NCBI GenBank assembly: GCA_021161465.1
Contig: JAGHAM010000014.1
Span: 1 to 7,005, forward strand
Reading direction: 5' to 3'
Source: Candidatus Iainarchaeum sp.
GTDB lineage: Archaea; B1Sed10-29; WALL01; JAGHAM01
DNA length: 7,005 nt
In this document: in pieces, positions 763 to 6,944 of the stretch
Layout: the number at the start of each line of letters is the position of its first letter
Numbering within the stretch: position 1 is the first letter of the stretch
Notes under the pieces: generated by a model
The model's database searches: none
What the model was told of the DNA's origin: nothing
The model's input: the letters and a program-made list of their open reading frames with translations, nothing else
Position numbers and translations under genes: made by a program

Positions 763-845
763 GCGGAGGTGGCAGAGTAGCTATGCATCCGGCTGCAGAC
801 CGGAGTACGGGGGTGCGACTGCGCAAGCAAATCCCTCCCTCCGCT
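763..845 (+). tRNA. tRNA-Cys (GCA) with a 12-nt T-loop insertion
   Basis: The acceptor stem is 763-769 paired perfectly with 838-844 (7 bp). U8 is at 770. The D-stem is 772-774 with 784-786. The anticodon stem is 788-792 with 800-804, closing the 7-nt loop CTGCAGA, which places GCA at 795-797. The variable loop is 805-808 and the T-stem is 809-813 with 833-837 (one G-U). The unpaired 3' base at 845 is T. The GCA anticodon and U73 are both classical cysteine identity elements, so the assignment is firm. CCA is not encoded. The oddity is the T-loop: 19 nt (814-832) instead of 7. Removing 12 nt, for example 815-826, would leave TGCAAAT. The extra bases can themselves fold (TGCG 814-817 with CGCA 822-825). 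It may be a tiny non-canonical archaeal intron, a stable extension, or a decayed gene. Confidence 0.85.
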
Positions 846-6509: not shown

Positions 6510-6944
6510 ATGGGTGAAAGAGTTCCAAAGGAAGAATTCAACCCAAAGAAGAGGTTAAGAAGGGTACTAGGGAATAAAAAAACAATCACTATCGAGAAAC
6601 TCGCCGGTCTCCTACATAGGGATTCCTTTGGGGAGCACACAGGTAAAATAGTATTATCAGGAACCCAAACAGAACCCGTGGATAGAACCATTTATAAATT
6701 TATATATAAAGATGAGGATGAAAACATAACTGATATTTCCATACAGGAAGGTATTAACGCTTTAGATAAATTAAGTAGAAAGCACGAGGCGTGGGTAAAC
6801 AAAATAAAGGATAAAACACCTGGGTCAAAGATACCACCCCCTCCAAAAGATCTTCATAGCATAGAATTGGATTCATCTGAACTTATAAAACGAGTTTTAA
6901 TTGTGAGACATCTAAAACCTGGTGAATATGGTTCTATGAGGTAG
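6510..6944 (+). CDS. Unrecognised 144-residue basic protein
   Basis: No family is recognised. The N-terminus is strongly basic (KEEFNPKKRLRRVLGNKK, residues 8-24) and could touch nucleic acid or membrane. A predicted mixed region follows (TITIEKLAGLL, TIYKFIYKDED), then a helix around 78-102. A proline run, KIPPPPKD (107-114), acts as a linker before a last short segment ending KRVLIVRHLKPGEYGSMR. No signal peptide, membrane segment, metal-binding cysteines or Walker motif is visible; the protein has no cysteine at all. In-frame TAA at 6489-6491 precedes the ATG, so the start is well bounded, and a TATA box lies at the right distance. It is divergent from gap and may form its own unit. The coding call rests on length, promoter placement and plausible composition; it could be lineage-restricted. 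Confidence 0.7.
   Translation: MGERVPKEEFNPKKRLRRVLGNKKTITIEKLAGLLHRDSFGEHTGKIVLSGTQTEPVDRTIYKFIYKDEDENITDISIQEGINALDKLSRKHEAWVNKIKDKTPGSKIPPPPKDLHSIELDSSELIKRVLIVRHLKPGEYGSMR

Follow-up and report, generated by a model that had tools for sequence, protein, structure and literature searches.

In the Thermoproteales, including Pyrobaculum, tRNA introns are found outside the canonical 37/38 site, several per gene and with similar sequences across different tRNAs, and position 59/60 in the T-loop is among the listed sites (PMC4090602); in P. calidifontis, 71 introns have been counted in 46 genes (PMC8450103). Introns in the T-arm have also been described in the eukaryotic nucleomorph of Guillardia theta, one of them, in tRNA-Cys(GCA), only 3 nt long, with excision confirmed by reverse-transcription polymerase chain reaction according to the account in PMC4090602. 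As for the splicing endonuclease EndA, the alpha4 and alpha2 forms are reported in reviews to cut only canonical motifs, broad specificity being limited to the (alpha-beta)2 and epsilon2 forms (PMC4033280; PMC6379350), the epsilon2 enzyme of ARMAN-2 being associated with relaxed bulge-helix-bulge (BHB) substrates (PMC6379350). According to a review from 2015, translocatable introns were not then known from either tRNA-Leu or tRNA-Ser (PMC4390854), and no paper on T-loop introns in DPANN archaea was found in the literature searched. Here we describe a tRNA-Cys gene with an enlarged T-loop at positions 763-845 of the forward strand of a 7,005-nt window, which is one contig (G000:C10; JAGHAM010000014.1) of an archaeal genome bin assigned to Candidatus Iainarchaeum sp. 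(976 kb in 40 contigs, approximately 93% complete).

Our comparison of this gene with the other tRNA genes of the genome and of its relatives indicates that the 12 extra nucleotides are very probably a minimal non-canonical tRNA intron, UGCGCAAGCAAA, located at tRNA position 59/60 and at 820-831 of the window, and that it is best regarded as one of a class of T-loop introns found throughout the genome. A first-pass annotation made from the letters of the window had called the gene a tRNA-Cys with a GCA anticodon and U73, and this identification was confirmed: the Rfam tRNA model RF00005 matches 763-845(+) over all 71 of its positions (1-71; 43.9 bits, E 5.1e-07), and the class-specific tRNA model R1 gives 45.4 bits. 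ARAGORN reported no tRNA on the unspliced window. The acceptor stem (763-769/838-844) is paired at 7/7 positions, the anticodon stem (788-792/800-804, with the anticodon at 795-797) at 5/5, and the T-stem (809-813/833-837) at 5/5 with one G-U, so that the earlier statement that the other stems are intact holds for these three. The D-stem (772-774/784-786) consists of three pairs and a G13/A22 mismatch that is common to the tRNA-Cys of most relatives. The variable region occupies 805-808, U73 is at 845, and CCA is not encoded. Between the strands of the T-stem lies a loop of 19 nt, UGCGACUGCGCAAGCAAAU (814-832), instead of the 7 nt seen in 54 intron-free tRNAs of relatives. The 12-nt surplus in the T-loop thus stands as first described, except that 814-832, where it had been placed, is the whole precursor loop and the surplus itself is best located at 820-831. 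A TATA-like box, TTTAAAAA (730-737), contains TTTAAA and starts 33 nt upstream of the gene, and of 18 tRNA genes scanned, 12 have a similar box between -29 and -37. At the elbow, position 18 is A (779) where most relatives have G, and its partner, position 55, is G (815) where they have U. Both members of the pair are altered, with G19 and C56 retained.

The context provided by the other tRNA genes bears most directly on the nature of the insertion. The tRNA list of the genome was compiled from searches and a few individual stretches and is therefore incomplete. Where automatic 3' ends were wrong, namely in genes without T-loop introns (Asn, iMet, Leu-UAA and Pro-UGG) and in two further loci (L015 and L088), they were excluded or redone. 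At an E value of 0.01 the Rfam tRNA model recovered 8 tRNAs in this genome versus 13-44 in 20 other genomes, and training a model on 34 tRNAs from the relatives brought in more genes than Rfam. In 20 of the 25 tRNA genes first listed, an insertion of 12-321 nt was observed at the T-loop site. For the 19 tested genes with the insertion between positions 59 and 60, the T-stem and acceptor strands pair 12/12 across it; Gly-GCC is the twentieth gene. The shortest insertions are those of Cys (12 nt), Val-GAC (13 nt) and Val-UAC (16 nt), and the others range from 60 to 321 nt. T-loop introns were also found in loci read later: stretches with otherwise unexplained intron copies turned out to hold Leu-GAG, another Leu gene whose anticodon is UAG, a Pro and Ser-like 3' parts, and a Thr 3' part is present in L091. 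In Asn, Tyr, iMet, Leu-UAA and Pro-UGG the T-loop is ordinary and the introns lie at other places. With this site occupied in the majority of the genome's other tRNA genes, the surplus in the tRNA-Cys gene is interpreted as an intron. In addition, the 5' part is enlarged in 15 of the 20 genes with a T-loop insertion, which gives a rough minimum of 40 introns in 25 genes. Trans-spliced halves were considered for the Ile, Gly, Phe and Lys genes and rejected once the 3' exons of these genes had turned up downstream in cis.

Removal of 12 nt inside the T-loop takes ARAGORN from no match to a tRNA-Cys, which, together with the interruption of many other tRNA genes at the same place, argues that the insertion is not due to chance. 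ARAGORN accepts any 12-nt removal starting at 815-821, and UUCAAAU is the commonest T-loop among relatives (33 of 54); both would be compatible with an intron that is real but cut elsewhere in the loop, for example from 56/57 to 58/59, leaving UGCAAAU or UGCGAAU. We consider these other cut sites unlikely, though a real contender, as 59/60 is the only register that combines a 3-nt bulge on the 3' side, pairing of positions 54-56 and the rare C59 of the closest relative. This sister genome from the same family (G001) has an uninterrupted tRNA-Cys with the T-loop UUCAACU, the sole C59 among the 54 T-loops, and the 59/60 register is favored because a cut there leaves C59 and U60, matching the sister tRNA-Cys. 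Position 59/60 is the T-loop counterpart of the canonical 37/38 intron site, and a BHB at this position is expected to pair exon positions 54-57 with intron bases ahead of a 3-nt bulge before C61. With a bulge of exactly 3 nt, 16 of the 19 genes have all of positions 54-56 paired (53 of 57 pairs), and other offsets perform worse. When a bulge of 2-4 nt is allowed, the pairing is found in 18 of 19 genes, versus a mean of 3.1 and a maximum of 9 in 2000 shuffles, although the 19 genes are not independent in this statistic because 17 of the introns fall into two homologous families. In the tRNA-Cys precursor, UGC at 814-816 (positions 54-56) can pair with GCA at 827-829 of the intron, followed by the 3-nt bulge AAU at 830-832. 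On this register, which rests on the sister T-loop and the BHB-like pairing, the 5' exon would comprise 763-819 (tRNA positions 1-59) and the 3' exon 832-845 (positions 60-73), the T-stem and acceptor 3' strands of the latter pairing 12/12 with the 5' exon.

The genome encodes the ligase RtcB (565 bits) and a single detected EndA gene of 170 aa (109 bits) with both EndA domains. This EndA aligns over its full length with that of M. jannaschii (1A79), the alignment having a single gap of one residue and no insertion, and the EndA of relatives is of the same type, encoded by a single gene in nearly all of them. Searches of the genome itself gave no EndA beta subunit, three-unit fusion or specific loop, although a gene in the missing 7% or so is possible. 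A weak second PF01974 match was examined as another EndA and rejected, since it is TruD. Separately, another genome (G016; L139, L140) is the only one of 19 with two EndA-like genes, possibly alpha and beta subunits.

Several observations weigh against an intron at 59/60. The EndA encoded here is of the alpha4 type, which is reported to cut canonical motifs only (PMC4033280). This leaves an enzyme of wider specificity than the rule allows, or else a beta subunit that is encoded in the missing sequence or has diverged beyond the reach of the search. The pairing in tRNA-Cys, taken alone, arises by chance in about one-fifth (~20%) of shuffles. The strict motif, a 4-bp helix between two 3-nt bulges, is absent from tRNA-Cys, in agreement with the earlier remark that the fold is no textbook BHB; the motif is at best relaxed, with three pairs, a mismatched fourth (G817/A826) and no inner helix. 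For non-canonical introns, relaxed forms such as BHL count as acceptable motifs. Moreover, the minimum-energy fold is the 4-bp hairpin 814-817/822-825 that the first-pass annotation had drawn (-8.7 versus -7.8 kcal/mol for the BHB-like fold), yet the BHB-like register, which leaves a 7-nt loop, lies within 0.9 kcal/mol of it. Finally, the mature loop would hold G55 together with A18 rather than the near-universal U55 and G18. The hairpin, and an elbow pair altered in a way that suggests a relaxed elbow, would suit a mature tRNA-Cys that retains the insertion as an expanded T-arm, with the surplus stacked on the T-stem as this hairpin. We judge this quite improbable, in view of same-site insertions of up to 321 nt in other tRNA genes, which cannot all persist, the 7-nt T-loops of the relatives' tRNA-Cys, the presence of the splicing enzymes and the retention of G19 and C56. 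Of the two outcomes that had been raised initially, the small archaeal intron is thus strongly favored over the expanded T-arm, with at least 20 tRNA genes interrupted at the same T-loop site.

The alteration of both positions 18 and 55 and the incompleteness of the genome might also point to a decaying pseudogene, with the working tRNA-Cys encoded in the missing part or supplied by a host. A search for a second, normal tRNA-Cys and a survey of relatives had been proposed at the outset. No second tRNA-Cys was found in this genome by gene-sequence search, by the class-specific tRNA model or by an anticodon-arm pattern, and a full-length cysteinyl-tRNA synthetase is encoded (506 bits). These results and the TATA-like box at the usual distance make a pseudogene unlikely, with the reservation that the assembly may lack approximately 7% of the genome; in addition, the stems are intact, and random decay would not place 12 nt exactly at the site of many other tRNA introns. 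A pseudogene is therefore regarded as very remote. In most relatives the tRNA-Cys is plain, its T-loop being 7 nt long, and the 12-nt T-loop insertion was seen only in this genome among the relatives compared. Introns do occur elsewhere in the tRNA-Cys of some relatives, within the T-arm (L020) or in the D-loop and near the anticodon (L027), and one tRNA-Cys (L024, genome G012) has introns in three places, the T-loop included.

For the tRNA-Cys intron at 59/60, we propose that exon positions 54-56 (UGC) would pair with the intron GCA (827-829) in the precursor, presenting the AAU bulge on the 3' side. EndA, presumably the lone alpha-type enzyme, would cut behind C819 and A831, and the exon ends would be joined by RtcB to give a predicted 71-nt tRNA-Cys with the T-loop UGCGACU.

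Sequence similarity places the 20 T-loop introns in two homologous groups of 10 and 7, the short introns of Cys, Val-GAC and Val-UAC remaining unlinked. A 67-base query from one family matched 30 pieces in this genome, and weaker matches were found in G001, G012 and others. In G012 this intron family is present in the T-loop of one Leu and two Val tRNAs; in G001 it is found in a Leu T-loop and in the anticodon loop of an Asp tRNA. G012, which comes from another taxonomic family within the same class, also has T-loop introns (L024, L108, L119 and L124), its Leu and two Val introns sharing an identical 33-base core. Within the genome under study, T-loop insertions of 197-321 nt (L083, L085 and L015) contain several internal copies of the family unit, as if one intron had entered another. 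Class II tRNAs with T-loop introns of the same family comprise two Leu genes and Ser-like 3' parts (L150 and L151; G000:C34 and C13). A broader proposal is that, in one archaeal lineage, most tRNA T-loops, class II included, have been filled by two self-spreading intron families that are processed by a lone alpha4-type EndA; we hold this to be evenly balanced between true and false. If true, it would mean that an alpha4-type EndA can have broad specificity and that the 12-nt tRNA-Cys intron is near the smallest substrate.

Some further observations concern the window and the assembly. The tRNA is the sole Rfam match in the window, the 12-nt insertion contains no group I intron core, which takes hundreds of nucleotides, and a plasmid search with the tRNA-Cys gene gave no match. 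Two open reading frames of the window, at 6510-6944 (144 aa) and 985-1278 (97 aa), had no NCBIfam match. The Thr-UGU and Thr-CGU genes (L012:171-256, L014:171-236 and L091:40-156) share a long, near-identical anticodon intron and are located at contig ends, where these intron repeats probably broke the assembly.

With mostly interrupted T-loops and only an alpha4-type EndA seen, this genome offers a direct test of the rule that links EndA type to unusual intron positions, and its homologous introns at one site form a natural series in which the spread of tRNA introns, and their shrinkage to as little as 12 nt, can be studied. In practice, most tRNAs of such genomes escape the standard search programs, as the Rfam counts illustrate. 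In comparison with ARMAN-2, this organism is likewise a small archaeon, whose tRNA splice motifs may be relaxed as well, but its EndA is a single 170-aa alpha subunit resembling that of M. jannaschii and not a three-unit fusion. The nucleomorph of Guillardia theta has a very short T-arm intron in tRNA-Cys, as is predicted here; unlike this archaeon, it is eukaryotic, and homologous intron families are not reported for it in the account given by PMC4090602. The closest parallel in pattern is with the Thermoproteales, where T-loop introns also lie at 59/60, similar introns are found in different tRNAs, and the pattern shown by the intron families described here has been termed intron transposition (PMC4090602); the 71 introns in 46 genes of P. 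calidifontis may be set beside the rough minimum of 40 in 25 genes here. In contrast to the Thermoproteales, a single T-loop site is occupied here in 20 or more of 25 genes, the introns extend to Leu and Ser tRNAs, and only an alpha-type EndA was found. T-loop introns are thus already a known kind, and what is unusual in this genome is its near-saturation with them, their occurrence in tRNA-Leu and tRNA-Ser, and their coexistence with a lone alpha4-type EndA.
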